Shown in pieces: positions 8,378-38,603 of a stretch of 64,000 nt of DNA (positions within the stretch are counted from its first letter, which is position 1; each line of letters opens with the position of its first letter). Source of the DNA: Acidobacteriota bacterium (GTDB lineage Bacteria; Acidobacteriota; Holophagae; Holophagales; Holophagaceae). The translations under genes and the position numbers were made by a program. The stretch is from positions 1-64,000 of the forward strand of contig SXYX01000008.1 in NCBI GenBank assembly GCA_005788175.1, in the 5' to 3' direction. The notes below the pieces were generated by a model that did not search any database, had not been told where the DNA came from, and saw only the letters and a program-made list of their open reading frames with translations.

Positions 8378-8396
8378 TTCATTTTTTTCTCCTGTT

Positions 8397-8426: not shown

Positions 8427-8464
8427 AATCCAAGTAGTTTATCTTGAGATACGGAGACTAACAA

Positions 8465-9046: not shown

Positions 9047-9161
9047 TTAGAACTTGCAAGTTTCCTTTGTTTGAGAGAAACTCATCATTCACGCCTCTTT
9101 GATATTTCATCAATTAGGTCTTCCTTGCTCCAATTGCGGGGCTTAACATCCACAAGGAGGA

Positions 9162-9551: not shown

Positions 9552-9820
9552 TGAAAAAACGAAATAGTCAAGACGCTAAGGCAAAAGCTAAAAAGAAAAA
9601 GTCTTTTGGGGCCAAACGCCCTAAGTTCTGTAAATTCTGTGTCGAACGACTCAATAATATAGATTATAAAGATGTCAAAACACTATCTTCCTTCACTCCC
9701 GAGAGAGGCAAGGTTATGCCTCGTCGAACTAGTGGGGTCTGTGCAGGACATCAACGCATGCTAGTGGTGGCTATTAAGCGTGCACGTAATATTGCACTCC
9801 TGCCATTCACTACCGACTAG
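9551..9820 (+). CDS. rpsR: 30S ribosomal protein S18 (Cys-containing type)
   Basis: [61 protein letters not shown]. Confidence 0.96.
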
Positions 9821-9869
9821 TTTTCATCTTTATCTGAGTCAAAGGGACCTAAGCGAGTAGCCTAGCCAT

Positions 9870-10346
9870 ATGACATCTGAATCTAAAGTACCCCTTCCCT
9901 TGCGTGGCCAAAAAGCCTTTCAAGCTAGTTGGCAAACGATCTTGAAGCAGTGGGTTTTACCTGGTTGGGGTTACTGGGTTTTGGGAGATAGAAAACGAGC
10001 AAAGATATTCTTCTTAGTTTGGATTTTCTTTTCCACAGTAGGTGTAATACAACTATGGATTGGCGCATCGGCTGCTGACGCCAGTGGAGGAATATTCATT
10101 TTCGAACTTAGTTCGTGGCTTAAATCCCTAGGTGCACTTGGAACACTCGGGCTAGGTCCCATATACTTTCCTTTGGCATATGTATTCGGAGGAAGTGCAT
10201 CGGAACCAATCCGTAATTTAATCCAAGAATATGGATCGAGCTACTTATTCATAATGGGGTTATTAAATTGGCTAGCATTCTTCGACTTATTTGATCGAAC
10301 AACCCAACGATGGCACTGGCGTCTTCCTAAAGATGAGTGTAATTAA
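9870..10346 (+). CDS. Putative inner-membrane protein of unknown function
   Basis: 158 aa, several TM segments, N-terminal motif WVLPGWGYWVLGDRKRAKIFF; follows rpsR. Confidence 0.65.
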   Translation: MTSESKVPLPLRGQKAFQASWQTILKQWVLPGWGYWVLGDRKRAKIFFLVWIFFSTVGVIQLWIGASAADASGGIFIFELSSWLKSLGALGTLGLGPIYFPLAYVFGGSASEPIRNLIQEYGSSYLFIMGLLNWLAFFDLFDRTTQRWHWRLPKDECN

Positions 10347-11059
10347 TCTTTTTTGATTATCGTTAAGGTGTCAGCAGAGAAATAGTCCGTTTTGTAGTGA
10401 GTAAGAAAAAGTTTACTGTAGAGCCATTGTGCGATCTTTCTATAAAACCAGTTCAGAGACTTGAATGCAGTCACAACAGGGTTACGATACCAAATAACCT
10501 TTTTTGTCCCACGAATACAAACTATTTTCATCTGAGATTGCTGGGTAAAGTAGATCCATTTGTGATACCCAATCGCGGTTCGGTGGGTGATATCTCCGTT
10601 TTGATGAGCGAGTCCAAGCGGCGAATCAGCGTTAGGAAATTTCGCAACAAAATATCCACCTGGAACCAATGCTGTTCGAACATGCTTCAAACAGATTTCA
10701 ATTTCATCATGAGTCAAATGTTCAAGAACATCCCAGGCAGCTATGAGATCAAATTTCTCCTTTCCGTAATCTTGATTTTCTGAAGATAGCGAAGCTAGAA
10801 AGCCTTTTTTTTGAGCCGATTCCACTAATAAGGGATTTTGTTCTATGCCCTCAATATCAAATCCTTGTAATCGAGCCCAGGTCAAAAAGCGTCCATTTCC
10901 AAAGCCGATCTCTAAAATTCGCATGGGAGGGTTTAGTTTCAATGATCTCAACTCTAGACTGAATTGTTTGCTTTCTTTGCGGGTGATCTGACCGAATGAA
11001 TTCGGTTCCCACTTTTTCCAATCAAGGTATTCTTTCTGTTTAAACATAATAAATATCAC
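10343..11059 (-). CDS. Class I SAM-dependent methyltransferase
   Basis: MRILEIGFGNGRFLTWARLQGFDIEGIEQNP, FDLIAAWDVLEHL. Confidence 0.85.
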   Translation of the reverse strand: MIFIMFKQKEYLDWKKWEPNSFGQITRKESKQFSLELRSLKLNPPMRILEIGFGNGRFLTWARLQGFDIEGIEQNPLLVESAQKKGFLASLSSENQDYGKEKFDLIAAWDVLEHLTHDEIEICLKHVRTALVPGGYFVAKFPNADSPLGLAHQNGDITHRTAIGYHKWIYFTQQSQMKIVCIRGTKKVIWYRNPVVTAFKSLNWFYRKIAQWLYSKLFLTHYKTDYFSADTLTIIKKD

Positions 11060-11095
11060 ACATCAGAAATTTAATTTGTCCAAATATTAAGATTA

Positions 11096-13543: not shown

Positions 13544-13576
13544 ATCAAATTAAAAAGATTTGAAAAATTCTTTGAT

Positions 13577-14686
13577 TCATTTAGGGATTTTTCTAGAGGC
13601 TTTAGCTAGAAGTTGAGTACGAATGAAGTGCTCAATATCTCCGTCTAAAACCTTCTGTGTTTGAGAAGACTCAACTCCGGTTCGGTGATCTTTAACAAGC
13701 TGATATGGGGCTAAGACATAACTTCGTATTTGGCTTCCCCACGCAATATCAGCTTTCTCACCACTTGCTTGGGCGATTTTCTCTGTGAGCTTTCGTTGTT
13801 CTAAATCATAAATTCGGCCTTTAAGAATTTTCAAAGCTGTCTCTCGATTTTGTATTTGCGATCGCTCATTTTGACAACTTACAACGATGCCAGTTGGCAA
13901 ATGAGTAAAACGAACCGCAGATTCCGTACGATTTACATGTTGACCACCAGCGCCACTCGCTCTGAATACATCAATCCTAAGATCTTTATCGGGAATTTCC
14001 ATATCGATGGTCTCGTCAAGCTCAGGACTGACATATACAGCGGCGAAACTCGTATGGCGACGCTTCGCAGAATCAAAAGGGGAAATTCTCACAAGGCGAT
14101 GAACCCCTGCTTCAGCACGTAAATACCCATAGGCATAGGGCGCTTTAATGGATAATGTTACGCCCTTCAGGCCTGCTTCATCTCCATCTTGAAGATCATG
14201 AATCTCAACAGTCCAGCCTTTTAATTCACAAAACCTAAGATACATGCGAAGCAACATGGCAACCCAATCACAACTCTCGGTTCCCCCTGCTCCCGGACTG
14301 ATTGATAAGATTGCATTATTAATATCTAATTCACCGCTTAACATCATACGTAATTCTGAATCTTGAACTAGTTGCCGAACAATATCTTCCAGTCGTACTG
14401 CTTCTGAAAAAAGAGTGAGGTCTTCCTTGGAGAGTTCAATGGCATCCTCTAAGTCTGATAAAGTGCCTTCAAGGCGCTTAGATAACTCAATATCTGATAA
14501 TAATGACGCGCGGCGCATCAAGAGAGGTTTAGATTTTTTAGGATCATCCCAAAAACCTGAAGCTAGAGTTTGAGTGTCAATAGAAGCAAGTTCTTTATTT
14601 TTTAGATCTTCCTTGAGGTAGGTCTTGAGCTGATCTACCCGCGGCTTCAATTCGTTTTTTGACCTAATAAGACTGTCTAAATCCAT
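13577..14686 (-). CDS. prfB: Peptide chain release factor 2
   Basis: GGQHVNRTESAVRFTHLPTGIVV, SPGAGGTESCDWVAML. Start reassigned from 15241 to ATG 14686 because the long ORF runs through bamD. Confidence 0.93.
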   Translation of the reverse strand: MDLDSLIRSKNELKPRVDQLKTYLKEDLKNKELASIDTQTLASGFWDDPKKSKPLLMRRASLLSDIELSKRLEGTLSDLEDAIELSKEDLTLFSEAVRLEDIVRQLVQDSELRMMLSGELDINNAILSISPGAGGTESCDWVAMLLRMYLRFCELKGWTVEIHDLQDGDEAGLKGVTLSIKAPYAYGYLRAEAGVHRLVRISPFDSAKRRHTSFAAVYVSPELDETIDMEIPDKDLRIDVFRASGAGGQHVNRTESAVRFTHLPTGIVVSCQNERSQIQNRETALKILKGRIYDLEQRKLTEKIAQASGEKADIAWGSQIRSYVLAPYQLVKDHRTGVESSQTQKVLDGDIEHFIRTQLLAKASRKIPK

Positions 14687-14812
14687 ACTAATCCACTCAC
14701 CGCTCTCTCTCTTTAACTTTAACGCTTCATGACACAAAAGAGGGCCTGTCTTAGTGCACCTTAAGCCATACTTATAGATCAGGCATCTTATTGATCTGCA
14801 TGGAGTCCATGA

Positions 14813-15748
14813 ATGCTTAAAGTGAATGTATCCCAAGTGTTTTTCAGTCTTGTAATAAGTTTTTTGATGGTGGGATGCGGCTTCACAGCCACTTTTGATC
14901 CCCAGAAAATTAATGCCGGCGAGCTCCTTCGAACTGCAGAAGATTCGGCACGCGCTGGTAAGTGGACCGCGGCTAGGGTATCCCTTAAGCAAATCGAGCA
15001 ATACTTCCCAGGTGCGAGGGAGTTTCCCAAAGCCAAGCTTCTTATGGCAGATTCCTATTTTTTCGACAATAGTCCTAGTTATCCTGAGGCAGAAATTGAG
15101 TATGAAAGCTTTCTTAATTATTTTCCAGGAAGTCAATCTAAAGATTACGTACTCTACCAGATTGCTCTTTGTCAATATGCTTCCATTACAAATGCCGAAC
15201 GAGATCAGGCAGCAACAAAAAAGGCAATAAGAAGTTTTCAAAGATTAATTACTGAGGCACCTGGTTCTATGTACGTTTCTGACGCGAAAGCCAAGATCAA
15301 CCAATGTAACCGTCGCTTAGCCGAACACGAACTCGCTGTCGGTTTGGTTTATATCAACACGTTTCATTATTCCGGAGCCGAGCGGCGACTCAAAATAATG
15401 TTAGAACAGTATGCCGACTATGTAGATTTAGAAAGAGCTTATTACTATTTAGGAGAAGCCTTAAGACAAAAGAGTACTCCGCCAGGTGAGATTGAAGCCT
15501 ATCAAAAAGGTCAACTTGATGCTTTAGGGGTACAAACTTGGAATGATGTCTCACAAGTCGATCAGGAGAAAGCTGTTAAAGCTCTTAACGAATGGTTGGG
15601 GCAACAAAGAGAAATATATATACAAGAAGCTAAGACCTACTATCAAAAATTAGCTGAAAGTTACCCCAACTCTGAGTGGGGACGAAAGGCCAAAAGCCGC
15701 CTAATTCAACTTGGAGTGACCCTCACTCAAGGAGAATTGGACAGTTAG
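14813..15748 (+). CDS. bamD: Outer membrane assembly lipoprotein BamD-like (TPR)
   Basis: Signal peptide with lipobox LMVGC; TPR-like YPEAEIEYESFLNYFPGSQSKDYVLYQIALC, YYQKLAESYPNSEWGRKAKSRL. Confidence 0.8.
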   Translation: MLKVNVSQVFFSLVISFLMVGCGFTATFDPQKINAGELLRTAEDSARAGKWTAARVSLKQIEQYFPGAREFPKAKLLMADSYFFDNSPSYPEAEIEYESFLNYFPGSQSKDYVLYQIALCQYASITNAERDQAATKKAIRSFQRLITEAPGSMYVSDAKAKINQCNRRLAEHELAVGLVYINTFHYSGAERRLKIMLEQYADYVDLERAYYYLGEALRQKSTPPGEIEAYQKGQLDALGVQTWNDVSQVDQEKAVKALNEWLGQQREIYIQEAKTYYQKLAESYPNSEWGRKAKSRLIQLGVTLTQGELDS

Positions 15749-15815
15749 ATCGTCTAGACTGCTCTAGATATCAATAGCCCATACGACCGCTCTATAATGT
15801 AATCACGGAGCTGCC

Positions 15816-16118
15816 ATGGAACTGCCTGAAAAAGTTAAATATCTTGTCGAAGAATTAGGTGATTCACTCATGGAAGCTCTTGCTGAAAATCAAAAATGTA
15901 AAGAATTGATTCAGGATATTCAAGCCCAAGAGTTCGATTTAGTCATGATGCTTGAAGCTACTTTGGCTCTACGAAAGAAACAATCGAAAGATACTCATGT
16001 CGAGGCCAAAGGAATTGGGCAAGAGAATATATCTTTTGAATCTACGGATAATTTTCAGGGTATTTGGTCTGAAGATGACAAGCAATTTTTAAAATCCTTT
16101 CGCATCCTACCCGATTAA
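15816..16118 (+). CDS. Hypothetical protein, acidic, 100 aa
   Basis: ORF between bamD and rlmN, GGAG upstream; no recognised family. Confidence 0.6.
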   Translation: MELPEKVKYLVEELGDSLMEALAENQKCKELIQDIQAQEFDLVMMLEATLALRKKQSKDTHVEAKGIGQENISFESTDNFQGIWSEDDKQFLKSFRILPD

Positions 16119-16124
16119 ATCCCT

Positions 16125-17219
16125 ATGCCTTCTGCTTGGGATCGGCCTGCCCCAGAGCTAATTGAAGAAATGACAAATTCTAACTTACTCGGTTGGAGTC
16201 TGCATGAGTGTATAGATTGGATGAAAAGTATAGATCAGCCTGGATATCGGGGAGAACAACTTTTCCAAGGTATCCAACAACAACGATGGACAGCAGCAGC
16301 AGAGTTTTCAACCTTACCGGAGTCTCTTCGTAAGACGCTCGAAAAAGAAACCAGTATTTATTACCCTTTAATTATCCACAGTCGATCTTCACAAGATGGC
16401 TCTACTAAGCATATTTTTAGGCTCCGCGATGATCTTGAGATTGAAGGTGTTTATATGCCTTATCGAAATCGAATCACCCTGTGTCTATCAAGCCAAATAG
16501 GTTGTGCGATGGGATGTACTTTCTGTGCAACAGGCGATATGGGTATTAAACGTAATTTAACTGCCAGTGAAATTGTCGGACAAGTTCTAAGTATGCTTAC
16601 TAAGCATGGTTATAAAGCTTCAGGAAAACCTACTGATATTCCTCTCAATCTAGTGTTTATGGGTATGGGCGAGCCCCTTCATAATTTAGACCATGTCATG
16701 AAAAGTGTTCAAATTTTAATAGATCCAAAAGGGCTCGCCATTCCGTCTAGGCGTATAACAATCTCAACATCAGGCTTGGTGCCCGGCATCGATCGACTGG
16801 GTTCCTTTTCGCCTCGACCAAAACTTGCTGTCTCTCTTAACGGTTCTCAGGATGACTATCGATCTAAAATTATGCCGGTGAATCGAGTTTGGAATCTCGC
16901 CTCATTGAAAGAGTGTATTTTGAGATTTCCTTTAGGTCCTCGTGAGTGGATCACGCTTGAGTACGTATTACTGAAGAATTTGACTGATCGTCCTTCGGAT
17001 ATGCAAAGTCTCCTTAGATTTGCTAAAGATATTCCATGTAAAATAAACTTGATCCCTTTTAATTCTCATGAAGGATCTGGATTTGATACACCTAGTGAGG
17101 CTCGTATTTCACAATGCTGTCAAATATTGGCGCAAACGGGCTTAATCGTTAGTGTGCGCCGATCTCGTGGTCAAGATATTGGCGGAGCATGTGGCCAACT
17201 TGTTCGAGATGAAGATTGA
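16125..17219 (+). CDS. rlmN: 23S rRNA (adenine-2503-C2) methyltransferase, radical SAM
   Basis: SSQIGCAMGCTFCATGDMGIKRNLTASEIVGQV; LVFMGMGEPLHN; RRSRGQDIGGACGQL. Confidence 0.95.
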   Translation: MPSAWDRPAPELIEEMTNSNLLGWSLHECIDWMKSIDQPGYRGEQLFQGIQQQRWTAAAEFSTLPESLRKTLEKETSIYYPLIIHSRSSQDGSTKHIFRLRDDLEIEGVYMPYRNRITLCLSSQIGCAMGCTFCATGDMGIKRNLTASEIVGQVLSMLTKHGYKASGKPTDIPLNLVFMGMGEPLHNLDHVMKSVQILIDPKGLAIPSRRITISTSGLVPGIDRLGSFSPRPKLAVSLNGSQDDYRSKIMPVNRVWNLASLKECILRFPLGPREWITLEYVLLKNLTDRPSDMQSLLRFAKDIPCKINLIPFNSHEGSGFDTPSEARISQCCQILAQTGLIVSVRRSRGQDIGGACGQLVRDED

Positions 17220-17260
17220 ATTAGACAGATTTCTATAGAGATGGTGAAATCAACCATAAG

Positions 17261-18052
17261 ATGAAATTTGATTGTTTAACCTTATTTCCGGAATTCTTTG
17301 AGCTAACCAAAATAGGTCTCACCGGAAAAGCTTTCAGAGAACTAGGGCATACTCTAGCAGTTCATTCTCTTCGAGAATTTTCTGATAAAACATTCGGCCA
17401 AGTCGACGATGCTCCTTTTGGTGGTGGTCCTGGAATGGTTTTACGAGGTGAGGTTCTCCTGAAAGCGCTTCGATCGATTCCCAAATCATCTACCTCAAAA
17501 GTGATTCATTTTTCACCGAGGGGAACACCTCTAACTCATGAAAAGATTCAGAACTTATTAACTAAAGACCATCTTATTTTAATCGCCTCACGTTATGAGG
17601 GTGTTGATGAGCGGGCCGTTCAGATAGCAGTCGACGAGGAGATCAGTATTGGTGATTTTGTGGTGAGCGGAGGTGAATTACCGGCTCTAATTTTGATTGA
17701 TGCCTTAGTACGATGGTTACCAGGAGTCTTGGGCAACCGATCTTCAGCATTTGAAGATAGCTTCGTACATGGGCTTTTAGATCATCCTCACTTCACTCGG
17801 CCAGAGATTCTTGAGGGTCATTCAGTGCCCGATATTCTCGTATCTGGTGATCATGAAAAGATTCGACGTTGGCGACTTGGAAAATCCATGAATGAAACAA
17901 AAATAAAACGGCCAGACTTGTGGAAATGTTACTTGAATGATCGGGTACGAACTCAAGATCTTGCGACTCAATGGATCGCTTGGTGTATCGAAAATCCCGA
18001 TGCAAATGAAGCATCAATGCCCAAAAGCTGGAAAGGCTGGCCTCCTATTTGA
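17261..18052 (+). CDS. trmD: tRNA (guanine-37-N1) methyltransferase
   Basis: FDCLTLFPEFF, DDAPFGGGPGMVL, RYEGVDERAVQ..DEEISIGDFVVSGGELPALILIDA. Confidence 0.96.
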   Translation: MKFDCLTLFPEFFELTKIGLTGKAFRELGHTLAVHSLREFSDKTFGQVDDAPFGGGPGMVLRGEVLLKALRSIPKSSTSKVIHFSPRGTPLTHEKIQNLLTKDHLILIASRYEGVDERAVQIAVDEEISIGDFVVSGGELPALILIDALVRWLPGVLGNRSSAFEDSFVHGLLDHPHFTRPEILEGHSVPDILVSGDHEKIRRWRLGKSMNETKIKRPDLWKCYLNDRVRTQDLATQWIAWCIENPDANEASMPKSWKGWPPI

Positions 18053-26043: not shown

Positions 26044-26451
26044 TTATATTTTGAGGATAGTTTTAATATCTTTAATTGCAGTTTGATAGAGTTTAGGACT
26101 TTTGATGGCTATAAGCACAGTATCTTCGCCCGCTACAGAACCCGCAATAAGTTCTTTGGACATACGCTGATCAATCACATAGGCAAGAGCGGCAGCAAAT
26201 CCTGCTGTAGTTCGAAGTATGACTAGATTCGGTGGTGCATTAACAATCGTAGCAGGGGGGATACTCTCCCCCACCTGATTTAGAACACGATAAGCACCTT
26301 GGTGTTTTTCAATGGATAAAGTTTTGAGACGTCTTGATAGGGTTGATTGAGTTAAATGAACACCTCGTCCCGCCAGGAGCCTTTCAAGTTGACTTTGGCT
26401 GGTCACGTCTTGGCTTGAAATTAGACTTAGGATCTTTTGATCAGTAGTCAT
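26044..26451 (-). CDS. argR: Arginine repressor ArgR
   Basis: wHTH LLAGRGVHLTQSTLSRRLKTLSIEK; C-terminal domain LRTTAGFAAALAYVIDQ..LIAGSVAGEDTVLIA. Confidence 0.9.
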   Translation of the reverse strand: MTTDQKILSLISSQDVTSQSQLERLLAGRGVHLTQSTLSRRLKTLSIEKHQGAYRVLNQVGESIPPATIVNAPPNLVILRTTAGFAAALAYVIDQRMSKELIAGSVAGEDTVLIAIKSPKLYQTAIKDIKTILKI

Positions 26452-26490
26452 AACGCACCTAAAAAAAGAACTTGGATGAAAATGGCAATT

Positions 26491-26543
26491 TGCGTATACT
26501 CATACACTACCCTTAATTATGCATTATTATGCATTATTATGCA
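26491..26543. promoter_or_regulatory. ARG-box-like operator cluster in the argR/argD divergent region
   Basis: Two overlapping TGCAT-TATT-ATGCA palindromes (26520-26533, 26530-26543) plus weaker GTAT-ACTC-ATAC (26494-26505); match the TGNAT-N4-ATNCA shape of ARG boxes. Confidence 0.65.
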
Positions 26544-26550
26544 AGGTTTT

Positions 26551-27681
26551 ATGATCCCATCCTTACTGCCAACTTATTCGCCCTACCCCCTCGCTATGGT
26601 TCGAGGTGAAGGCGATTTAATCATCGATGATCAGGGGCAATCATGGATTGACCTTTACGGTGGCCACTGTGTTTGCTCGACAGGACATAGCCATCCTAAA
26701 GTAGTTGAGGCAATTCACAAACAGTCAAAACAATTAATCTTCTATTCAACTGCAGGCGAACTGAAAATACGCCGGGAGGCTGCAGATAATCTTATTGCAT
26801 TCTCAGGGATGGATACCTTATTCTTTTGCAACTCTGGCGCTGAAGCCAATGAAAATGCTTTAAAACTTTCTTTTGAGATAACGGGGCGAAAGGCATTCGG
26901 AAGTTTTCAGGGAGGTTGGCATGGCCGGACTTTGCTAGCCCTCACCGTTACGGATGATATAAAGATCACTAAAGCTTTTGAGGGTATTTTTCCTGAGCAT
27001 TATCGATTTCCATTCGGAGATATTTCGGCATTAGAATCCATTAATTTTTCAAATTTAGCGTGTGTCATTGTTGAACCTATTCAGAGTATGTCTGGAATTC
27101 GCACAGCCCCTCTAACCTGGTTTTCAGCGTTACGTAAAAAATGTACCGATGCTGGATGTCTTCTTGTCTTTGATGAAATTCAAACGGGCGTGGGGCGCCT
27201 TGGTGTGCCTTACGCTAGTGATTATTTTAAGGTGAAGCCTGATTTCATAACCAGCGCAAAGGGCCTTGCCTCAGGTATTCCCATTGGTGCCCTCCTGATG
27301 ACTGAGGGTATGGCTAAGGATGTCAAATCTCATATGCTCGGGAGTACCTTTGGGGGAGGCCCTATTGCTTGTGCAGCACTGATCGCAACTTTAGATATTA
27401 TTCGTGATGAACGCCTTATGGAGCACGCGAAATCTATGCAATCTTATTTAGTAGATGCACTAAAAAATACTGTTATTGATGAAGTCAAGGGTATCGGACT
27501 TTTGTTAGGTCTCAAAACTTCAAATGCTTCTGATCTAAAAACGTATCTTTTATCTCAGCGGATTCTTATCGGAAGTTCATCCGATCCTAACGTGCTTCGC
27601 CTAATGCCCCCCTTAAATGTTCGAAAAAGTTCATTGGAATATCTCGTCGAACATATCCGAGCTTACGGAAGTATGTCATGA
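26551..27681 (+). CDS. argD: Acylornithine aminotransferase (class III PLP)
   Basis: FFCNSGAEANENALKLS; VIVEPIQSMSGI; LVFDEIQTGVGRLG; SAKGLASGIPIGA. Start moved from 26437 to ATG 26551 (downstream of operator). Confidence 0.92.
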   Translation: MIPSLLPTYSPYPLAMVRGEGDLIIDDQGQSWIDLYGGHCVCSTGHSHPKVVEAIHKQSKQLIFYSTAGELKIRREAADNLIAFSGMDTLFFCNSGAEANENALKLSFEITGRKAFGSFQGGWHGRTLLALTVTDDIKITKAFEGIFPEHYRFPFGDISALESINFSNLACVIVEPIQSMSGIRTAPLTWFSALRKKCTDAGCLLVFDEIQTGVGRLGVPYASDYFKVKPDFITSAKGLASGIPIGALLMTEGMAKDVKSHMLGSTFGGGPIACAALIATLDIIRDERLMEHAKSMQSYLVDALKNTVIDEVKGIGLLLGLKTSNASDLKTYLLSQRILIGSSSDPNVLRLMPPLNVRKSSLEYLVEHIRAYGSMS

Positions 27682-28661
27682 GACATTTCACCCATCTTCG
27701 AGACCTGACATTTCATGAGATAGGGTCTATTATGCATCAGGTTGAGGCTTGGAAAGCCCATCCGCCTGATGACATTTTTTCGAATAAAATTTTAGCTATG
27801 GTCTTTTTTAACCCTTCTTTACGAACACGACTCAGTTTTGAAACAGCGATGTTGCGTCACGGGGGACATGCCATTGCCCTTGAGGTCGGCACAGGTTCAT
27901 GGAACTTAGAAACTGAGCCTGGAGTAACTATGAACGGCAACAAACCTGAACATGTTCGCGAAGCCGTACCTGTCATTAGTCGCCTAGCGGACTTAATCGG
28001 AGTTCGATCTTTTTCTTCAGGATTATCTGAAATAGACGATGAACGAGACTCTGTCATTCAGGCTTTCAAATCATTCAGCAGCGTGCCTGTTATTAGCATG
28101 GAAAGTGCTCGTGAACATCCCTGTCAGGGATTAGCAGACATGCTGACCATTCGAGAACATATAAATTCACCGAGACCTAAAGTTTCTTTAGTTTGGGCTC
28201 CACATATCAAACCACTCCCAAGAGCAGTCCCAAATTCTTTTCTTCTTTCTTGTGCAGCTATGGGCTATAACATAACTATTGCAAATCCAATGGGCTACGA
28301 TCTATCTCATTCGGTAATTCAAGAGGCCCAAAACTTAGCCAAACAAACAGGAAGCGATATTCAATTCAGTCATGATCTTGACTCAGCAGTCAAAGATACA
28401 CAGGTTATATATACCAAGGCTTGGGGGCCCTCATCTTCATCAGCTCCCTCCATGAATTCACTTATGTCTTGGGTGACTCATGAAAGACACCTTGAATTGG
28501 CTGACCCCAGAGTGATCTTCATGCATTGTCTACCTGTGAGAAGAAACCTTGAAGTCGATGACTCCGTACTAGATAGTCCTCAGTGTAAGGTCATTGATGA
28601 AGCAGAGAATCGATTTCATATTCAACGTGCACTAATACATTTTCTTTTATCTCATTCTTAA
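27678..28661 (+). CDS. argF': N-acylornithine carbamoyltransferase, N-succinylornithine type predicted
   Basis: FFNPSLRTRLSFE; NKPEH with Pro90; WAPHIKPLPRAVPNSF; HCLPVRRNLEVDDSVLDSPQCKVIDEAENR. Confidence 0.9.
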   Translation: MRHFTHLRDLTFHEIGSIMHQVEAWKAHPPDDIFSNKILAMVFFNPSLRTRLSFETAMLRHGGHAIALEVGTGSWNLETEPGVTMNGNKPEHVREAVPVISRLADLIGVRSFSSGLSEIDDERDSVIQAFKSFSSVPVISMESAREHPCQGLADMLTIREHINSPRPKVSLVWAPHIKPLPRAVPNSFLLSCAAMGYNITIANPMGYDLSHSVIQEAQNLAKQTGSDIQFSHDLDSAVKDTQVIYTKAWGPSSSSAPSMNSLMSWVTHERHLELADPRVIFMHCLPVRRNLEVDDSVLDSPQCKVIDEAENRFHIQRALIHFLLSHS

Positions 28662-28669: not shown

Positions 28670-29584
28670 ATGTTTGAAAAAAACCCATATCAATTACTCA
28701 AATTATCTGCAGCATACGGGCGGCAGTTTCGGCATAAAATATTTGTCATTAAATTAAGTGGAGAGACTTTAACTGACCCCAAAACCCGTCGAGCGCTATG
28801 TGAACAAATTGCATTACTATGGAGTTTTTCTATCCGGATCATCCTAGTACATGGGGGTGGAATTGAGCTAGATCAAGAATGCCAACGCCTTAATATTCCA
28901 ATATACAAAGTGGCAGGCCGTCGAATTACGAGTCCCGAAGTTCTGCAGACAGCTTTTAGAGTTTTTACCGAAGATGTCCAACCCCTCTTGCTAAAGGAAC
29001 TTGAATTATTAGGGATCTCAGCCGTGGGTTTGACGGGACTGGATGGACAGATGATAGAGGCGCATATACGACCCCCCCTTGCGATTAAAGCTGATGGTGA
29101 TAATGAGGAAAAGATGGTTAATTTTGGATGGGTAGGAGATATTGATCGTGTAAATCCAGAGATTCTTTTTCACCTATTGAGCCAAGATAAAATTCCCGTT
29201 GTCGCCCCTATAACGGGTAACCGTGATGGTGATATGTTCAATACAAATGCAGATACGATCGCATCTGAGATAGCATGTACTGTCCAAGCAGAAAAACTAT
29301 TTTTTCTTCTGTCGGTTCCTGGACTACTTCGAGATGTAAATAATCACTCTTCTTTAATATCTCAAATTGCATTTCACGAATTGGATGCACTGGATAGAGA
29401 GAATATGATCTCCGGGGGTATGCGTCCCAAGATCGAGGCCGTGAAACGAGCATTACAAGGCGGCGTAAAGGCAGCGCACTTGGTTTCAGGAATACTACCG
29501 GATGCTTTATTAATAGAGGTTTTTACTAATGAAGGGAGTGGAACAATGATGCTTGCTCCAGCCAAAGAAAGAGTGTCGTCATGA
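28670..29584 (+). CDS. argB: N-acylglutamate kinase (ArgB-like amino acid kinase)
   Basis: FVIKLSGETL; ILVHGGGIELDQEC; NTNADTIASEIA; ISGGMRPKIEAVKRAL. Confidence 0.9.
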   Translation: MFEKNPYQLLKLSAAYGRQFRHKIFVIKLSGETLTDPKTRRALCEQIALLWSFSIRIILVHGGGIELDQECQRLNIPIYKVAGRRITSPEVLQTAFRVFTEDVQPLLLKELELLGISAVGLTGLDGQMIEAHIRPPLAIKADGDNEEKMVNFGWVGDIDRVNPEILFHLLSQDKIPVVAPITGNRDGDMFNTNADTIASEIACTVQAEKLFFLLSVPGLLRDVNNHSSLISQIAFHELDALDRENMISGGMRPKIEAVKRALQGGVKAAHLVSGILPDALLIEVFTNEGSGTMMLAPAKERVSS

Positions 29585-30657
29585 AGCTGTATTCGCAAAT
29601 TTCTCCTGCTGAATTCCTTAAAGCTATTGTTGAAACAAGCAGTATTTCAGGCGATGAGAAATCCTTAGCCAATACTTTAGAGTCCTTCCTGCATGAACAA
29701 GGATTCAATCCAAACCGTATAGGAAATAATATTTGGTTCACTTTGGGATCCATGTCTGGACCTACCCTTTTACTCAACTCGCATATTGATACGGTTCCAC
29801 CGAACGCAAGTTGGATCTCGGATCCTTTTAAGCCCGAATGGAAGGATTCACGATTGATAGGACTAGGAGCCAACGATGCGAAAGGCGCAGTAACGTCGAT
29901 AATTTTTGCTGCTCTGCATCTTAAAAGGGAAAATTTTCAAGCAGGTCGTATTTTAGTCGCTCTATCTTGCGAAGAAGAAACCGGGGGGCAAGGACTTGGA
30001 ACCATAGTATCTCAACTTGGTCGTTTGGATGCAGCGATCGTAGGAGAACCTACTGGCCTTCGTGTTGTCTCATCACAGCGTGGGCTCTTAATTCTTAAAT
30101 GTACCGCACGAGGTATCAGCGGGCATGTCGCTAATGCACAAATGCTAGGTACTGAAAATGCAATCGCCAAGGCATCGAGAGACATTATAAAACTTGAAAA
30201 CTTATCCTTACCATCTCACCCCACCCTAGGTCCTATGAAAGCGCATGTTACCCAAATTCAAGGTGGTCTAAAACGTAATCAAATTCCTGATCAATGTGAA
30301 TTTTATATTGATATTCGTACAAATCCGGAGTCAGATCATAAGGCTCTAACACAACTCATTCAAAATAATCTTGAAAGTGAAGTTTCCGTTCATTCTGATA
30401 GGTATTTACCCAAATGGACCGATTCAAAGCATCCCATAGTAAGAGCTGCTTTAAGAGCAGCAAAAAAAGAAGCGCCTACTAGCTCAGCTACGACATCAGA
30501 CTGGGCTTTTTTACAAAATATACCTGCAGTTAAAGTGGGTCCTGGCGATACCTTTAGAAGCCATCGACCCGATGAGTATCTTTTACTGAGTGAACTCGAG
30601 GAAGGAATCGCTTTTTATAGAGATAGCGTCATACATTTTTTTGAACAGGTATCTTAA
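29581..30657 (+). CDS. argE: M20-family deacylase (ArgE/DapE/LysK-like)
   Basis: LLNSHIDTVPP; GLGANDAKGAVTS; LSCEEETGGQGL; AIVGEPTGL. Confidence 0.85.
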   Translation: MKLYSQISPAEFLKAIVETSSISGDEKSLANTLESFLHEQGFNPNRIGNNIWFTLGSMSGPTLLLNSHIDTVPPNASWISDPFKPEWKDSRLIGLGANDAKGAVTSIIFAALHLKRENFQAGRILVALSCEEETGGQGLGTIVSQLGRLDAAIVGEPTGLRVVSSQRGLLILKCTARGISGHVANAQMLGTENAIAKASRDIIKLENLSLPSHPTLGPMKAHVTQIQGGLKRNQIPDQCEFYIDIRTNPESDHKALTQLIQNNLESEVSVHSDRYLPKWTDSKHPIVRAALRAAKKEAPTSSATTSDWAFLQNIPAVKVGPGDTFRSHRPDEYLLLSELEEGIAFYRDSVIHFFEQVS

Positions 30658-32012
30658 TGATTCTCAAATCACTGTGGTCTAAAAAAGATCTCCCAACGGA
30701 TGTCGAAATTTCCAATTTCACTATTGGAGATGATCGACAAATCGATCCCATTTTTTTACCTTTTGATTGCTTGGGGACCTCTGCCCATGTTCGACAGCTT
30801 CACCAACTCGGACATTTAACCCGTGGAGAATTAGATACTGTTCTAACATCTTTGAAGGGAATTTTCGATCTATCAACCACAAACGTCATTAATCTCGAGG
30901 GCTATGAGGATGGACATTCTTATCTTGAGTTCCAACTAACAGAAAAATTAGGAGATGTAGGAAAAAAGATCCACTTAGGTCGGTCTCGTAATGATCAAGT
31001 TTTAGTGACCGAAAGATTATGGATGCGTCACGAGATTCTTGAACTGCATCATGATCTTCTCAAACTATGTCAGCAACTGTGTTCTATGTCAGATCGCTAT
31101 AAGTCAATTCTTATGCCGGGTTATACACATCAAAGGAAAGCAATGCCAACTACATTTGGTTTTTGGATAGCCTCATACGCAGAAGCTTTCACAGAAATTT
31201 TATCAGCAGGTAAAGATCTTTATCATCAGCTTAATTTTTCACCCCTGGGTGCAGCAGCAGGCTTTGGAAGTCCGGTTCCATTGGATCGTATTTTGGTATC
31301 TAGATTATTGGGTTTTGATGGAATACAACGTAACGCTTTGAATATTATATCTAGCCGTGGGCGTTACCAACTAGATTGCTTACATTGGATCAATCAGATT
31401 ACAAATATTTTTGAGAAATTTTTTATTGATTTATCTATTTTCTCTCAGGAAGAGTATCAATTTATTTCTCTTCCAAATTCTTTCACAACGGGCAGTAGTA
31501 TCATGCCCCAAAAAAGAAATCCGGATGTTTTAGAATTAGCTAGGGGTCGATGCAGTGAAATTAGAGGCCTTAGAACAACCCTAGAAAATATTTCTGCTAG
31601 TCTCCCATCAAGTTATCATCGTGATAGTCAGTTGCAGAAATTCTACTTAGTTCGTTCATTTCTCTTGATTCAAGCTATTGTGAATATTACTCCTACACTA
31701 ACGGATAATCTTCAAGTTCATGAAGATAAAATGAAAAGTGCTTGTACCCCAGATCTTTTTTCAACCCACGAAGTCTACCAATTAGTCCTCAAAGGACTCC
31801 CATTCAGAGAAGCCTATAAAATTATCGGGGAGCAAATTCTTGCTGGTAGTTTTAAGGCTCAATTAGTCGAGTCCTACTTGCCTAGTCTTCATAGTGACTT
31901 TGAAGAGGAGGGTCGTTTACGTAATAACCAGATTGATGTTCTCGATGTCTGGGGTAAGGAAACCAAAGGAAATCTTAAAAAACTTTTTGCAAAGCTAATG
32001 GAGAGTGCATGA
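30657..32012 (+). CDS. argH: Argininosuccinate lyase
   Basis: IHLGRSRNDQVLVTERLWMR; MPGYTHQRKAMPTTFGFW; GSSIMPQKRNPDVLEL. Confidence 0.93.
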   Translation: MILKSLWSKKDLPTDVEISNFTIGDDRQIDPIFLPFDCLGTSAHVRQLHQLGHLTRGELDTVLTSLKGIFDLSTTNVINLEGYEDGHSYLEFQLTEKLGDVGKKIHLGRSRNDQVLVTERLWMRHEILELHHDLLKLCQQLCSMSDRYKSILMPGYTHQRKAMPTTFGFWIASYAEAFTEILSAGKDLYHQLNFSPLGAAAGFGSPVPLDRILVSRLLGFDGIQRNALNIISSRGRYQLDCLHWINQITNIFEKFFIDLSIFSQEEYQFISLPNSFTTGSSIMPQKRNPDVLELARGRCSEIRGLRTTLENISASLPSSYHRDSQLQKFYLVRSFLLIQAIVNITPTLTDNLQVHEDKMKSACTPDLFSTHEVYQLVLKGLPFREAYKIIGEQILAGSFKAQLVESYLPSLHSDFEEEGRLRNNQIDVLDVWGKETKGNLKKLFAKLMESA

Positions 32013-33220
32013 GTTCATCAAAAGTATTATTGGCATTCTCAGGTGGTTTAGATACTACTTTTTGTTTAGCGTATCTCCTCGAACAGAATTATGAGGTTCA
32101 TACTGCAACTGTTGATACGGGAGGATTCTCCGCTGATGAAATTAATCGTATTGATGAGTTATCACGATCTCTGGGCGCTAGCTCACATACACTTATCAAC
32201 GGAAAACAACAACTCTTTGAAGATTACTTGAAATTTCTCATCTACGGTAATGTATTGCGTGGCCAAGTTTATCCACTTTCTGTTTCTGCTGAACGCGTAT
32301 GTCAAGCACGCTGTCTAATCGATCTTGCAAAGAAACTTAAAGTAGAGACCCTCGCTCACGGATCAACAGGTTCGGGCAATGATCAGGTTAGATTTGATGT
32401 AGCTTTCCGAACTTTGTATCCACAAGTGAAAATCCTTACACCTATAAGAGATCTTTCTTTAATGCGACATCAGGAAGTTGATTATTTAATTGAGCGAAAT
32501 ATCCATCTACCGACTAGTGCAGGAATTTATTCGATTAATGAAGGGATGTGGGGAACCAGCATTGGCGGTAAGGAGACGTTAACTTCCTGGGATTTTCTTC
32601 CAGATAGTGCATTTCCTAAAGGCGTTATTTCTAGAGAGCAGGCATCCCAAGAGCTTCGTCTTACTTTCCACGAAGGAATACCCACTCGTATTAATCATGA
32701 AGCGATGGATCCTGTCAGATTGATAGAAACTTTAAACACTTTGGGTTCTTCTTTTGGATTGGGTCGAGGGACCCATCTAGGAGAAACCATTTTAGGCATT
32801 AAGGGGCGTATCGGCTTCGAAGCACCTGCAGCTTATCTATTGATTACAGCACATCGTGAGCTTGAAAAACTTGTGTTGAGCGGAAAGCAGCTTTTTTGGA
32901 AGGAGACCTTAGGTAATCTCTATGGTTCCCTCCTTCACGAGGGACACTTCTTAGATCCTTTGGGCCGGGATCTTGAAGCATTTTTAAGTCGCAGCCAAGA
33001 ACGCGTCACAGGAGAGGTTCGCATCAAGATTGAGCCTCTGACTTTCTCTATTCTAGGTTGTCATTCGCCCTATTCCTTAATGGATTCTAAACTCGCTATG
33101 TATGGTGAAAGTAACGCTCTTTGGTCAAGCTCGGATGCTCTAGGATTCACTAAAATATTTGGAGTATCGCAGCGACTATACCATCATGCAGATATAAAAA
33201 ATAATGAGGAATCTTCATGA
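32009..33220 (+). CDS. argG: Argininosuccinate synthase
   Basis: VLLAFSGGLDTTFCLAYL; HGSTGSGNDQVRFDVAF; YSINEGMWGTSIGGKETLTS. Confidence 0.95.
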   Translation: MSSSKVLLAFSGGLDTTFCLAYLLEQNYEVHTATVDTGGFSADEINRIDELSRSLGASSHTLINGKQQLFEDYLKFLIYGNVLRGQVYPLSVSAERVCQARCLIDLAKKLKVETLAHGSTGSGNDQVRFDVAFRTLYPQVKILTPIRDLSLMRHQEVDYLIERNIHLPTSAGIYSINEGMWGTSIGGKETLTSWDFLPDSAFPKGVISREQASQELRLTFHEGIPTRINHEAMDPVRLIETLNTLGSSFGLGRGTHLGETILGIKGRIGFEAPAAYLLITAHRELEKLVLSGKQLFWKETLGNLYGSLLHEGHFLDPLGRDLEAFLSRSQERVTGEVRIKIEPLTFSILGCHSPYSLMDSKLAMYGESNALWSSSDALGFTKIFGVSQRLYHHADIKNNEESS

Positions 33221-34269
33221 GAATGCACGTGGATAAGATTGGCTCAGTAACTCGTAATTTAAAACTAGGTCGCACCCTGACACTTTCTGACCAGATATTG
33301 ATACAACCAGGCTCTGTTGTAGCCTGCAGAGTTCATGGAGAAAAATCAACATATAATCAACTCGAAGATCCCCATGGTCGACTTGTCACTCTTCATCAAG
33401 GAGATCTTGTCATTGGTGCTTTAGGGCATCGTAATGCACTTCATGGATATGAAGGTGTAATGCCAACTCATCTTAACGTAGGAGACACAATTAATATGTT
33501 GAATATGGGTGGTGTGATGGGACTTTGTCAATCTCACAATCCCGACGTAGGGGCTCCCTTTCAACTAGAAGTTCTAGGTCAGGTGATGCTATTCCCTGAA
33601 TTTCAATCCCGTGTGGGTCAACCTGCGCATATTGCCATGGGGGCTCTTCAACCTCGAGATTTAACCGTAAATTGTCCCATCATCTATATAGCAGGAACCT
33701 GTATGAATGCTGGGAAAACTGCCGCATGTTGCGCTATTATTCGTAATTTTTCTCAACGCGGTCTCAGAATAGGTGGCGTGAAACTCACTGGGGTTTCACT
33801 TCAGCGCGATATTTTAAGCATGCGGGACTATGGAGCATCCGAAATTCTAGATTTCACAGACGCTGGGATTGTCTGTACGTCTAAAGAAACTGCGGCCTCG
33901 ACCGCCAAGACATTATTGACAGCTATGTCTGAGATGGAGGTAGATCTCATCGTTGCTGAAACAGGTGACGGAATTCTAGGTGAGTATGGCGTCCAATCTA
34001 TTCTCAGTGATCCTGCTTTGAAAGAATTAACTTCGGCTTTTATTCTTTGCGCAAATGATCCCGTAGGTGCCCTAGGAGGCTCGGAGACTGTACGAAAAGA
34101 ATTTGGAATTAATGTAGATATCATAGCGGGTCCTGTGACAGATAATCGAGTTGGAGAACGTTTCATAGAATCTTTAGGGCTCCCCGCTCGTAATGCCCGC
34201 AGCAATCCGAAAGCACTTGGCGATCTTGCATTTGATATTTGTTACCCCACAACAACGGTTGGCGTATGA
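33217..34269 (+). CDS. BioD/DUF1611-like P-loop protein of unknown function in arginine operon
   Basis: Deviant Walker A GTCMNAGKT (33694-33720); DLIVAETGDGILGEYGV; separate beta-rich N-terminal region; 4-nt overlaps with argG and argC. Confidence 0.7.
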   Translation: MRMHVDKIGSVTRNLKLGRTLTLSDQILIQPGSVVACRVHGEKSTYNQLEDPHGRLVTLHQGDLVIGALGHRNALHGYEGVMPTHLNVGDTINMLNMGGVMGLCQSHNPDVGAPFQLEVLGQVMLFPEFQSRVGQPAHIAMGALQPRDLTVNCPIIYIAGTCMNAGKTAACCAIIRNFSQRGLRIGGVKLTGVSLQRDILSMRDYGASEILDFTDAGIVCTSKETAASTAKTLLTAMSEMEVDLIVAETGDGILGEYGVQSILSDPALKELTSAFILCANDPVGALGGSETVRKEFGINVDIIAGPVTDNRVGERFIESLGLPARNARSNPKALGDLAFDICYPTTTVGV

Positions 34270-35255
34270 AAGCAATCATTCTAGGGGCTTCGGGGTACGG
34301 CGGTGGCGAATTATTTAGATGGCTACTTCAACACCCCAAAATTGAATCTATTGAAGGTACTTCAAGATCAAATGCAGGAAAAACAATCTCTTCTGTACAC
34401 CCAAATCTTTTAGGAATTGCAGAAGGAGATTTTCTAGAAAGTATTGATTGGACTAAGTATGTACATGAAGAAAAATTGATAGTCTTCGCATGTATGCCTC
34501 ATGGCGAATTCAAGGATCAATACTATCTTCTTGAAAACGAGTGGGGAAAGCTGGGTTTATCAGAACGTATTCTTTTAATTGATTTATCAGATGACTTTAG
34601 AGTAGATTCGCATTTCGTTTATGGCCTCTCTGAAATTAATAAAGATCAAATCAAAGGATCGCGTCGTATTTCTAACCCAGGTTGTTTTGCCACGGCTCTC
34701 CAACTAGGAATTCTGCCACTAGCTCCTTATCGACCTGAACATATTTTTATAAGTGCTATTACAGGATCGAGTGGTTCGGGGTACTCTGCTAGCTCAACTA
34801 CGCACCATCCAACTAGATCAAATGATTTTAGAGCTTACAAAATGCTATCGCACCAACATGAGGCAGAAATTCTTAATAGTTGTAGTCAGAAAGACTGGAA
34901 CCCAATTTTATCATTTGTACCTCAATCCTCGTCATTAGTTCGTGGCATATTTGCCACAATACAACTAACCCAAAATGAATCTATGAAGGCATCTGATATT
35001 CCTATGGTTTTTAAGGATTTTTATAGAAATACATTTTTTGTCCGATGGGTGAATGGAACGCCCCGTGTACTAAGCACAGTCGGGTCTAATTTTGCTGATG
35101 TCCATGTCATGGTACAAAATGATAAGGTACTAGTCATGGTAGCTCTTGATAATCTAGGTAAAGGCATGGCCTCCCAAGCGATTCAAAACATGAATCTCGC
35201 CTTGGGATTCCCAGAATGGACAGGTCTTCGTCAAGCCGGGCCCTACCCTCTTTAA
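34266..35255 (+). CDS. argC: N-acyl-gamma-glutamyl-phosphate reductase
   Basis: MKAIILGASGYGGGELFRWLLQHP; RRISNPGCFATALQLGILPL; start set to ATG 34266 within ATGA overlap. Confidence 0.93.
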   Translation: MKAIILGASGYGGGELFRWLLQHPKIESIEGTSRSNAGKTISSVHPNLLGIAEGDFLESIDWTKYVHEEKLIVFACMPHGEFKDQYYLLENEWGKLGLSERILLIDLSDDFRVDSHFVYGLSEINKDQIKGSRRISNPGCFATALQLGILPLAPYRPEHIFISAITGSSGSGYSASSTTHHPTRSNDFRAYKMLSHQHEAEILNSCSQKDWNPILSFVPQSSSLVRGIFATIQLTQNESMKASDIPMVFKDFYRNTFFVRWVNGTPRVLSTVGSNFADVHVMVQNDKVLVMVALDNLGKGMASQAIQNMNLALGFPEWTGLRQAGPYPL

Positions 35256-35275: not shown

Positions 35276-36643
35276 ATGAATACACAATTATTAACGAAAG
35301 AAGGACTTAGATCTTTTTCTGAATCTCAAAGAATATCTTTTGAAAAAGAATTAAAAACTTTAGTTGAAATTCCGAGTATCAGCAGTGATCCAACGAAAAC
35401 TAAAGATATTCAGCGGTGTGCTCAAGCAGCCAAAAGCCTCTTTGAGCGTTACGGAGGTCATGCCGAAATACTCGATACCAATGGAAGCCCTATCATTCAC
35501 GGATGGTTTACTGAAGAATACGAAAAAACTATCACCGTTTACAATCACATGGATGTCCAGCCTGCAAACGAACCAGAATGGACTGCTGAACCTTTTGAAT
35601 TTATGGTCAAGGGGGACACTTATCTGGGACGAGGTACGACTGATGATAAAGGCCCAGCCCTAAGTGCGTTTTTTGGAGCTTTGGCAGTTCGTGAGGCAGG
35701 TGTACCAATTAATGTGCATTTTCTCTGGGAGTTCGAAGAAGAAATCGGTTCTCCTAATTTTGAACAAGGATTAAAAAAACATAAGGATAAATTAAAAACT
35801 GATGCCATTGTTGTCAGTGACACAGTTTGGATTACTCGAGGTAAACCGAGTACTCCCGCAGGTTTAAGAGGTTTAAAGGGCTTTAGATTAACCCTTGAGA
35901 CAGCTGATCATGATCTGCATAGTGGTGTTGTTGGGGGGGCGGCTCGAAATCCGCTAACCGAATTAATTACTCTTGTAGGACAAATGGTTGATGGAAATAC
36001 GGGTCATGTTCTAATACCAGATTTTTATACTGAGGTTATTCCTCCATCATCCGAAGAGCTTGAAGGATGGCGTGTGAGCGGTTTTACAACCCAAACATTT
36101 ATGAAAGACCATCAACTTAAAAGTATACGTAGTCAAGATCCGATTGACATTCTTACACGCGTCTGGGGGATGCCTACGATGGAAGTACATGGTGTTGTTG
36201 GTGGTTACACGGGACCAGGAATCAAAAGTTCTGTTGCGCCAAGAGCTGAGATCAAACTGTCTTGCCGACTAGTACCTGCCATGAATGAAGCTACTACAAT
36301 GACTAGAATAAAAGCCTTCGTCCAATCCAAAAACCCTGATGTTGTCGTACATGAAGAACACGGATTAGCTCCTTTCAAAGGACATGTCACGGGACCTTAC
36401 GCAGAAGCAATCCGCGAAGCGTATCAATTTGCCTTTGGAGAAACTTGCGTCTTTACTCGTGAGGGTGGAAGTATCGGTGCGGTTAAAACGATGGAAGATA
36501 TCCTAGGCTCTGAGGTTTACTTCCTTGGCCTCTCTCTGCCAAGTCATGGCTACCACGCCCCTAATGAAAATTATGATTGGGAGCAAGCAAGTGGAGGTAT
36601 GGCTGCCTTTGCGCATTATTTCAAGACTGTCTCTAAAATGTAA
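35276..36643 (+). CDS. M20-family dipeptidase/carboxypeptidase-like metallohydrolase
   Basis: TITVYNHMDVQPANEPEWTAEPF; GRGTTDDKGPALSAFFG; EFEEEIGSPNFE; HDLHSGVVGGAARNP. Confidence 0.9.
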   Translation: MNTQLLTKEGLRSFSESQRISFEKELKTLVEIPSISSDPTKTKDIQRCAQAAKSLFERYGGHAEILDTNGSPIIHGWFTEEYEKTITVYNHMDVQPANEPEWTAEPFEFMVKGDTYLGRGTTDDKGPALSAFFGALAVREAGVPINVHFLWEFEEEIGSPNFEQGLKKHKDKLKTDAIVVSDTVWITRGKPSTPAGLRGLKGFRLTLETADHDLHSGVVGGAARNPLTELITLVGQMVDGNTGHVLIPDFYTEVIPPSSEELEGWRVSGFTTQTFMKDHQLKSIRSQDPIDILTRVWGMPTMEVHGVVGGYTGPGIKSSVAPRAEIKLSCRLVPAMNEATTMTRIKAFVQSKNPDVVVHEEHGLAPFKGHVTGPYAEAIREAYQFAFGETCVFTREGGSIGAVKTMEDILGSEVYFLGLSLPSHGYHAPNENYDWEQASGGMAAFAHYFKTVSKM

Positions 36644-36662: not shown

Positions 36663-38603
36663 GTGTCTGATATCGAAAGTCTATCGTCAGAATCACGTCA
36701 TTTTCATCCTTCTCAAGCATTTAAAAAAATCTCAAATCTGCAAAGTGAATCCTATGCCCTACTTATTAAACAATTTAAAGAGGATCGATTAGGGACCTGG
36801 GGGCGACTTGCCCAAGAAGAACTTATTTGGGATTCATCTTTTCAAACAGTTTATAGTGGGTCTTTTGAAAATCCTCAATGGTTTGAAGAAGGTCGGCTTA
36901 ATGCATCAGTCCAATGTTTGGATCGTTGGATCAATACTAACAAATTTCATAAGATAGCTCTTGTCTTTGAGGGAGAACCTGGAGATGAGAGGAGTCTGAC
37001 GTACGAAGAGCTTCTTGATCAAGTTATCCGAATGACCGCTGCTCTTCGTAACTTAGGTATTCAGAAAGGGGATCGAGTCGCTATTTACTTACCGCTGATT
37101 CCCGAAATGATTATTGCTGTATTGGCCTGTGCGCGTCTAGGTGCTACTCATTCTGTTGTCTTCGCAGGATTTTCTGCTGAATCTTTATCAAACCGAATCA
37201 ATGACGCAGGAGCGCGCTTGCTTATTACGGCCGATGGTAGCTGGCGCAAGGGAGAGCAACTTCCCTTAAAAAAAATCTCAGATCAGGCCGTATCTCAATC
37301 TCCAACAATCGAAAAAGTATTGGTTGTCCAACGAACAAAACAAGACGTTTTTATGGATCCCCAAAGAGATCTTTGGTTATCAGATATTTTAAATAATGCA
37401 GATATTTCTAGGGGATACCCTGAAAGCGTGGCAGCAGAACATCCTTTATTCTTACTGTATACGTCGGGATCAACTGGAAAACCCAAAGGAATACAACATG
37501 GGACGGCAGGTTATCTTTTGTGGTCTAAGTTAACTACTCGGTGGGTTCTTGATTTAAAGCCTACAGACGTATATTGGTGTACAGCAGATGTAGGTTGGAT
37601 TACAGGGCATAGCTATGTCATTTATGGTCCACTTCAGGAAGGAGGTACTGTTTTCATCTATGAGGGCAGCCCTGTTCACCCTGAACCAGATCGTTTTTGG
37701 CGCATGATCGAAAAATATCGTATCTCTATTTTTTATACTGCCCCAACGGCCATTAGAACCTTCATCAGACTTGGTACTGAATATCTAAAGAAGCATGACC
37801 TTTCTTCTTTGAGGCTCTTGGGCTCCGTAGGAGAACCCATTAATCCTGAGGCCTGGCTTTGGTATTTCCAAGAAGTAGGTGGTGGGAGATGCCCAATCGT
37901 CGATACCTGGTGGCAAACCGAGACTGGGGGGATAATGATCGCTCCGATTCCCGGAGTTCATACCACTATTCCCGGAAGTGCTATTCAGCCCTTACCTGGA
38001 ATTGAAATTGATATTCAAGATCGAGAAGGTCGATCACAGAATTCTGGATTTTTAGTCATCACTTCTAGTTGGCCCTCTCAACTTAGAGGTATCTGGGGTG
38101 ATTTCGAGCGATATCACAAAACATATCACAACGAAATTAAGAATGTTTATTTTTCAGGCGATGGAGCCCGTCGAGATCACGAAGGAAATATATGGTTGAT
38201 GGGTCGAGTGGACGATGTTCTCAACGTATCTGGGCATCGCTTGGGAACAGCAGAAATCGAAAGCGCTTTGGTTTCCCATCCCTGCGTAGCCGAGGCAGCA
38301 GTCGTAGGACGACCCGATGAAATCAAGGGAGAAGGTATTGTTGCATTTGTGACTCTCAAATCAGGAGCAATCATCACCCCAGAAGCCCTAAAAGTTCATG
38401 TCACACGAGAAATTGGGGCTCTGGCCCGTCCTGATGATATTCGCTTTGCCGAAGGACTACCCAAAACTCGTAGTGGGAAAATTATGAGGCGCTTGTTAAG
38501 AGATTTAGCTCGAGGACAAAACTCAAATCAGGATACGAGTACTCTCGAAGACCTTAAAGTCATTGAGAAACTTCGTAGCGATAATTCAGACGATGAATCT
38601 TAA
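36663..38603 (+). CDS. acs: Acetyl-CoA synthetase (AMP-forming)
   Basis: LLYTSGSTGKPKGIQHGTAGYL; DTWWQTETGGIM; GRVDDVLNVSGHRLGTAEIE; PKTRSGKIMRRLLR. Confidence 0.95.
   Translation: MSDIESLSSESRHFHPSQAFKKISNLQSESYALLIKQFKEDRLGTWGRLAQEELIWDSSFQTVYSGSFENPQWFEEGRLNASVQCLDRWINTNKFHKIALVFEGEPGDERSLTYEELLDQVIRMTAALRNLGIQKGDRVAIYLPLIPEMIIAVLACARLGATHSVVFAGFSAESLSNRINDAGARLLITADGSWRKGEQLPLKKISDQAVSQSPTIEKVLVVQRTKQDVFMDPQRDLWLSDILNNADISRGYPESVAAEHPLFLLYTSGSTGKPKGIQHGTAGYLLWSKLTTRWVLDLKPTDVYWCTADVGWITGHSYVIYGPLQEGGTVFIYEGSPVHPEPDRFWRMIEKYRISIFYTAPTAIRTFIRLGTEYLKKHDLSSLRLLGSVGEPINPEAWLWYFQEVGGGRCPIVDTWWQTETGGIMIAPIPGVHTTIPGSAIQPLPGIEIDIQDREGRSQNSGFLVITSSWPSQLRGIWGDFERYHKTYHNEIKNVYFSGDGARRDHEGNIWLMGRVDDVLNVSGHRLGTAEIESALVSHPCVAEAAVVGRPDEIKGEGIVAFVTLKSGAIITPEALKVHVTREIGALARPDDIRFAEGLPKTRSGKIMRRLLRDLARGQNSNQDTSTLEDLKVIEKLRSDNSDDES

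Follow-up and report, generated by a model that had tools for sequence, protein, structure and literature searches.

A P-loop protein encoded in the arginine operon of Acidobacteriota as a candidate N-acyl-L-glutamate synthase

We analyzed a 64-kb stretch of DNA (the window) from an Acidobacteriota bacterium of the Holophagaceae and found an arginine operon in the order argD-argF'-argB-M20-argH-argG-X-argC, with intergenic distances of -4 to +8 nt throughout (Table 1). HMM scores against family cut-offs backed the identities that a preliminary description of this DNA had given to argD, argF', argB, the M20 gene, argH, argG and argC. The open reading frame designated X starts with ATG, encodes 350 aa and overlaps both the end of argG and the start of argC by 4 nt (ATGA); the frame and both junctions agreed with those described earlier. 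An ARG box lies between the divergent argR gene and the operon and is the sole exact match in the 64 kb, where 0.08 would be expected. The coordinates of argD are those of a mechanically derived reading frame, and its real start is probably further downstream. The tight spacing, the ATGA overlaps and the ARG box together indicate that X is probably co-transcribed with the arg genes and under arginine control. The M20 deacylase likely acts at a late pathway step, where it would take off the N-acyl group. Downstream of the operon lie an M20-peptidase-like frame and then one that reads as acetyl-CoA-synthetase-like, for which a link to acyl-CoA supply is possible.

Table 1. Coordinates of the features discussed. 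Positions are those of the window unless another locus or accession is given.
Feature	Position	Strand	Remark
argR, arginine repressor	26044-26451	-	divergent from operon; HMM
ARG box (ArgR operator) TATGCATTATTATGCATT	26518-26535	+	perfect match, upstream of operon
argD, aminotransferase	26437-27681	+	TIGR00707, 331 bits, under cut-off 410
argF', N-acyl-ornithine carbamoyltransferase	27678-28661	+	PRK04523, 369 bits, cut-off 288
argB, N-acylglutamate kinase	28670-29584	+	TIGR00761, 196 bits; no fused GNAT/NAGS domain
M20 deacylase, ArgE/DapE type	29581-30657	+	TIGR01910, 158 bits, under cut-off 217.6
argH, argininosuccinate lyase	30657-32012	+	TIGR00838, 281 bits; 451 aa, no fused acyltransferase/NAGS
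argG, argininosuccinate synthase	32009-33220	+	TIGR00032, 298 bits
X, proposed N-acyl-L-glutamate synthase, new family	33217-34269	+	P-loop segment matches, under cut-offs
argC, N-acyl-gamma-glutamyl-phosphate reductase	34266-35255	+	TIGR01850, 276 bits
M20-peptidase-like frame	35276-36643		downstream of operon
Acetyl-CoA-synthetase-like frame	36663-38603		by reading
ABC-transporter-paired X relatives	L036:9980-12600, L073:7752-10508, L074:9238-12239, L075:7532-10175, L077:3965-6735, L078:3893-6531		
Plasmid cluster with distant X relative	L155 (NZ_CP116206.1) 5739-14062		
Plasmid cluster with distant X relative	L156 (NZ_CP085446.1) 8730-17418		
X relative H10	MT835675.1 34930-35793		25% identical, unannotated
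Gene between argF' and argB	L081:6390-6935		small secreted-looking protein
Gene between argF' and argB	L086:6691-7227		small secreted-looking protein

The X protein is laid out as an N-terminal region (residues ~1-150) followed by a P-loop domain (~154-345). The deviant Walker A motif GTCMNAGKT, recognized in the preliminary description, was located at residues 160-168, with K189, D198 and ETGDG (248-252) downstream. Eleven residues (G160, M163, G166, K167, T168, K189, D198, E248, G250, D251 and G252) were invariant in 32/32 X proteins and, by analogy with BioD and MobB, would fit a site that binds metal and a nucleotide-type phosphate. The BioD/MobB pattern of a GxxxxxGKT Walker A with downstream K, D and ExG was likewise present in all 32, a likeness at the level of the class only. 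X matched MobB, DUF1611 and BioD-like models in their P-loop segments only, and every match fell under the curated cut-offs: 25.2 bits against 26.6 for MobB (PF03205, covering residues 156-248) and 24.5 against 76.2 for BioD (TIGR00176). A PDB search with a profile of the 32 proteins matched only BioD/MobB/FtsY-type P-loops, and HMM searches of X found neither a GNAT/NAT domain nor PF01960 (ArgJ). Over its full length X was homologous to a wider, uncurated protein set (334 columns, E 2e-68), and the arg-linked X proteins formed a single clade relative to those outside arg clusters (support 95/96). X is a member of a separate, uncurated two-domain P-loop family. An AlphaFold model built with four sequences reached a pLDDT of 48.5, and Foldseek with this poor model gave generic P-loop matches; the N-terminal region is predicted with low confidence to be beta-rich.

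We then compared the genomic context of X across the phylum in 297 Acidobacteriota genomes from 80 families. The linkage of X to its arg neighbors proposed earlier held for argC, which X directly adjoined on the same strand in 32/32 other distinct loci with an arg-clade X (L035 and L037 lie on one contig), while the remaining gene order varied. This linkage is far beyond chance. Arg-clade X was distributed over 17 families, the adjacency in f60 being read from coordinates alone, and no X relative from outside the clade was found in an arg cluster. Several X loci had no M20 deacylase gene in the arg cluster. At L059-L064 (families f64, f61, f21, f53 and f72) the cluster was reduced to X-argC-argD-argB, flanked, where examined, by unrelated genes, with rsmI upstream and gatA beyond argB. 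Such a minimal cassette indicates that X fills the slot of the first step, the classical place of argJ or argA.

Arg-clade X was present in 71/297 genomes and ArgJ in 111/297, and no genome had both (Fisher 8e-18 at the genome level, without a correction for relatedness). At the family level, X occurred in 17/80 and ArgJ in 27/80, and the chance of zero shared families was 3e-4. The short GNAT-type N-acetylglutamate synthase (GNAT-NAGS, NF005840) was found in ~80/297 genomes, mostly alongside ArgJ and in a few without it (G084, G110, G023), while in the 71 X genomes nothing scored above the generic GNAT level (best scores 51 and 55 bits). The preliminary description had listed no ArgA, ArgJ or GNAT-NAGS in the cluster, and a search of the window's own genome (893,751 bases, ~85% complete) extended this: ArgJ was not found, and the three PF00583 GNATs read as polyamine-acetyltransferase-like, as RimI beside TsaB and as a generic GNAT. 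Since this genome is only ~85% complete, the argument from absence rests on complete relatives. Exclusion of ArgJ is also partly expected with succinyl/ArgF' pathways, so that there only the absence of NAGS is informative. Defined by function, as the occupant of the slot beside argB, argC and argD in genomes where the other known synthases (here ArgJ and GNAT-NAGS) are absent, X qualifies as a candidate synthase.

The carbamoyltransferase gave an indication of the acyl group. In the Xanthomonas numbering, Glu92, Asn185 and Lys302 mark the acetyl-ornithine type, while A/S/P/V/Q at 92, P at 185 and V/I/E at 302 mark the succinyl-ornithine type (PMC4581275). ArgF' of the window has P90, P181 and E292 at these three sites and so follows the succinyl-type rule. 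Among 27 ArgF' proteins encoded at X loci, every one had Pro185 and none had the acetyl-type Glu92 or Asn185; site 302 was V/I/E in 25/27 and K in 2/27, and site 92 was T or I in 7/27, which is outside the published list and is not the acetyl-type Glu. From these residues, the acyl group in the window organism is probably succinyl and the product of X probably N-succinyl-L-glutamate. An arginine route through succinylated intermediates is known from Bacteroides (PMC7311316). X occurred alongside ArgF' in most genomes, but in 14 X genomes no ArgF' passed the cut-off, and a true ornithine carbamoyltransferase (OTC) was present in 12 of the 14. Thus X follows steps 1-4 and not the carbamoylation route, and a role as partner of ArgF' only was rejected. 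The succinyl prediction concerns X genomes of the ArgF' type and not these 14.

The operon slot, the exclusion with ArgJ and GNAT-NAGS and the minimal cassette make the earlier suggestion of an unrelated replacement for ArgA or ArgJ that makes N-acyl-glutamate the best-supported reading. We consider it probable, although well short of certain, that X is a non-orthologous N-acyl-L-glutamate synthase, for which we infer the activity, the acyl group and the donor. X would stand in for ArgA/NAGS or ArgJ and supply ArgB, ArgC and ArgD with N-acyl-glutamate; its BioD/MobB-like P-loop domain (K167, T168, K189, D198, E248, G250-G252) would hold the phosphates of the acyl donor and its N-terminal domain would help to bind glutamate. 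In one version the P-loop would grip the phosphates of CoA for a succinyl-CoA-dependent transfer; in the other, ATP would activate the carboxylate as an acyl-phosphate (succinate + ATP + Glu). DgcN is a precedent for a P-loop transferase that holds CoA phosphates, and BioD and formyl-tetrahydrofolate synthetase are P-loop enzymes that make acyl- or carbamoyl-phosphates; the succinyl-CoA-dependent version is slightly favored. The more specific proposal, that X founds a new P-loop N-succinyl-L-glutamate synthase family, possibly ATP-dependent, within a broader P-loop family that N-acylates amino acids, is put forward tentatively.

In the main rival reading, X binds NTP in an accessory or regulatory capacity, for instance as a sensor of arginine or energy or as an assembly partner of ArgC and ArgB, while an unrecognized GNAT carries out step 1. 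The P-loop of X has the full NTP/Mg signature, a feature with no evident use in a pure acyl-CoA transferase, and MobB, a weak sequence neighbor, is an adaptor protein. Complete Holophagaceae genomes have 10-20 GNATs, among which one common to all X genomes may exist. Moreover, six f22 genomes (G141, G149, G173, G181, G204 and G227; loci L081-L086) keep the arg operon (argR-argC-argD-argF'-argB) with no X, and profile searches of these six found no ArgJ, NF005840 NAGS or distant X, so that either a further synthase acts there or X is dispensable. When the GNAT sets of G204 and G141 were compared, none was unique to X-less f22; the proteins either had counterparts in X-bearing genomes or were unshared among the X-less ones. 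The detailed synteny comparison covered L081, L082 and L085. At L081 and L086 a gene with no NCBIfam match lies between argF' and argB, and it was rejected as a NAGS since its product is a small secreted-looking protein. Five other genomes (G064, G082, G131, G287 and G198), several of them incomplete, had a strong argC and no identified step 1. Against a regulatory role stand the strict exclusion with ArgJ and GNAT-NAGS, which includes the OTC-type genomes, the four-gene cassette with X at the step-1 slot, and the count of 0/71 X genomes with a GNAT-NAGS, and we regard it as unlikely. A different action on an N-acyl intermediate, as a second deacylase or in acyl exchange, would suit the tie of X to argC in every cluster and the M20 gene missing from several, but step 1 would still be without an enzyme in all 71 genomes and we know of no P-loop protein that acts as a deacylase, which makes this quite improbable. 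A supply of carbamoyl phosphate or a later step, with X as a BioD-style carbamate or carboxylate kinase, has in its favor the BioD-like P-loop and the carbamoyltransferase gene near X in many loci. However, carB was found in 15/15 genomes checked, indicating that carbamoyl phosphate is not the gap, and the X-argC-argD-argB cassette has no carbamoyltransferase; X was rejected as the carbamoyl-phosphate supplier, and we give such a role very little chance.

The preliminary description had also tentatively assigned X to DUF1611, the family of DgcN, which is reported to be an N-acetyltransferase of D-glutamate. X and DUF1611/DgcN proteins (PF07755; 7xrj, 2obn, 2g0t) share a similar P-loop domain behind an N-terminal domain of similar length, and the BLAST neighbors of X on plasmids are annotated as DUF1611, yet these neighbors fall under the Pfam cut-off. 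X itself scored 14.5 bits against PF07755 (gathering score 25), with weak matches in 16/32 members of the X family (best E 5.9e-5), and it has K189 and ExGDG where DUF1611 has TGQT and EGQG. In hhalign, true DUF1611/DgcN proteins of the Acidobacteriota aligned with X over 33 P-loop columns (Prob 32%) and not over the full length. These proteins matched 7xrj, 2obn and 2g0t at E values of 1e-72 to 1e-92, whereas the X profile matched none of the three. By reading, a DgcA-like enolase-family epimerase adjoins five DUF1611 proteins, while X loci hold arg genes and no such neighbor. The assignment did not survive these comparisons, and a DUF1611 member acting on D-glutamate like DgcN is largely refuted as an explanation of X.

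Relatives outside the arg clade occur in other settings. A distant X relative sits in each of two plasmid clusters, together with genes for PEP mutase, TPP-dependent enzymes, ATP-grasp and MFS and for an extra carbamoyltransferase of the aspartate or ornithine type. Both look like phosphonate antimetabolite clusters of the N-phosphonoacetyl-aspartate/-ornithine type with self-resistance. This context is a hint that the wider X family N-acylates amino acids, but the ATP-grasp enzymes could equally form the amide. Another branch, in Alphaproteobacteria and Acidobacteriota, has an ABC transporter gene of the ATP-binding half-transporter type as a recurrent partner, and a further relative (H10) lies on a contig whose record describes it as a bacteriophage of human faecal origin.

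Three genomes of two contigs and 3.7 Mb each (G096, G123 and G165), which we take, short of proof, to be Chloracidobacterium, have X, ArgF' and argC, and ArgJ and NAGS are absent from them. Chloracidobacterium thermophilum, examined with all 20 amino acids, requires only Ile, Leu, Val and Lys (PMC4376005) and thus makes arginine. If the three genomes are indeed of this genus, X or some other step-1 enzyme serves a bacterium that is prototrophic for arginine. A synthase role for X would fill the first arginine step in many Acidobacteriota families in which neither ArgA nor ArgJ can be found, would provide a second route into succinylated arginine intermediates after that of Bacteroidetes, and would assign a function to a P-loop family that lacks curation; otherwise, pathway-prediction tools would label X-bearing bacteria as arginine auxotrophs.

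The reaction proposed for X, N-acylation of L-glutamate, is that of ArgA and the short GNAT S-NAGS (NF005840-like; PMC4490483), but X is a P-loop protein with no GNAT domain. With ArgJ (PF01960) it shares the operon slot beside argC, argB and argD, although the sequences are unrelated and the two never occur in one genome. The N-acylglutamate synthase of the BT3761/Cabys_1732 type also feeds a pathway with a succinyl-ornithine-type carbamoyltransferase; it was reported in 2017 as restricted to Bacteroidetes and Caldithrix (PMC7311316, PMC5317091), and this reported distribution sets X apart from it. The C-NAGS of Corynebacterium, whose sequence is unrelated to other NAGS (PMC4490483), is a precedent for an unrelated protein taking over step 1. 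The BioD/MobB/CobQ class resembles X in its Walker A spacing and in the positions of K, D and E, whereas X falls under the cut-offs of these families and has a different N-terminal region and a different genomic context.
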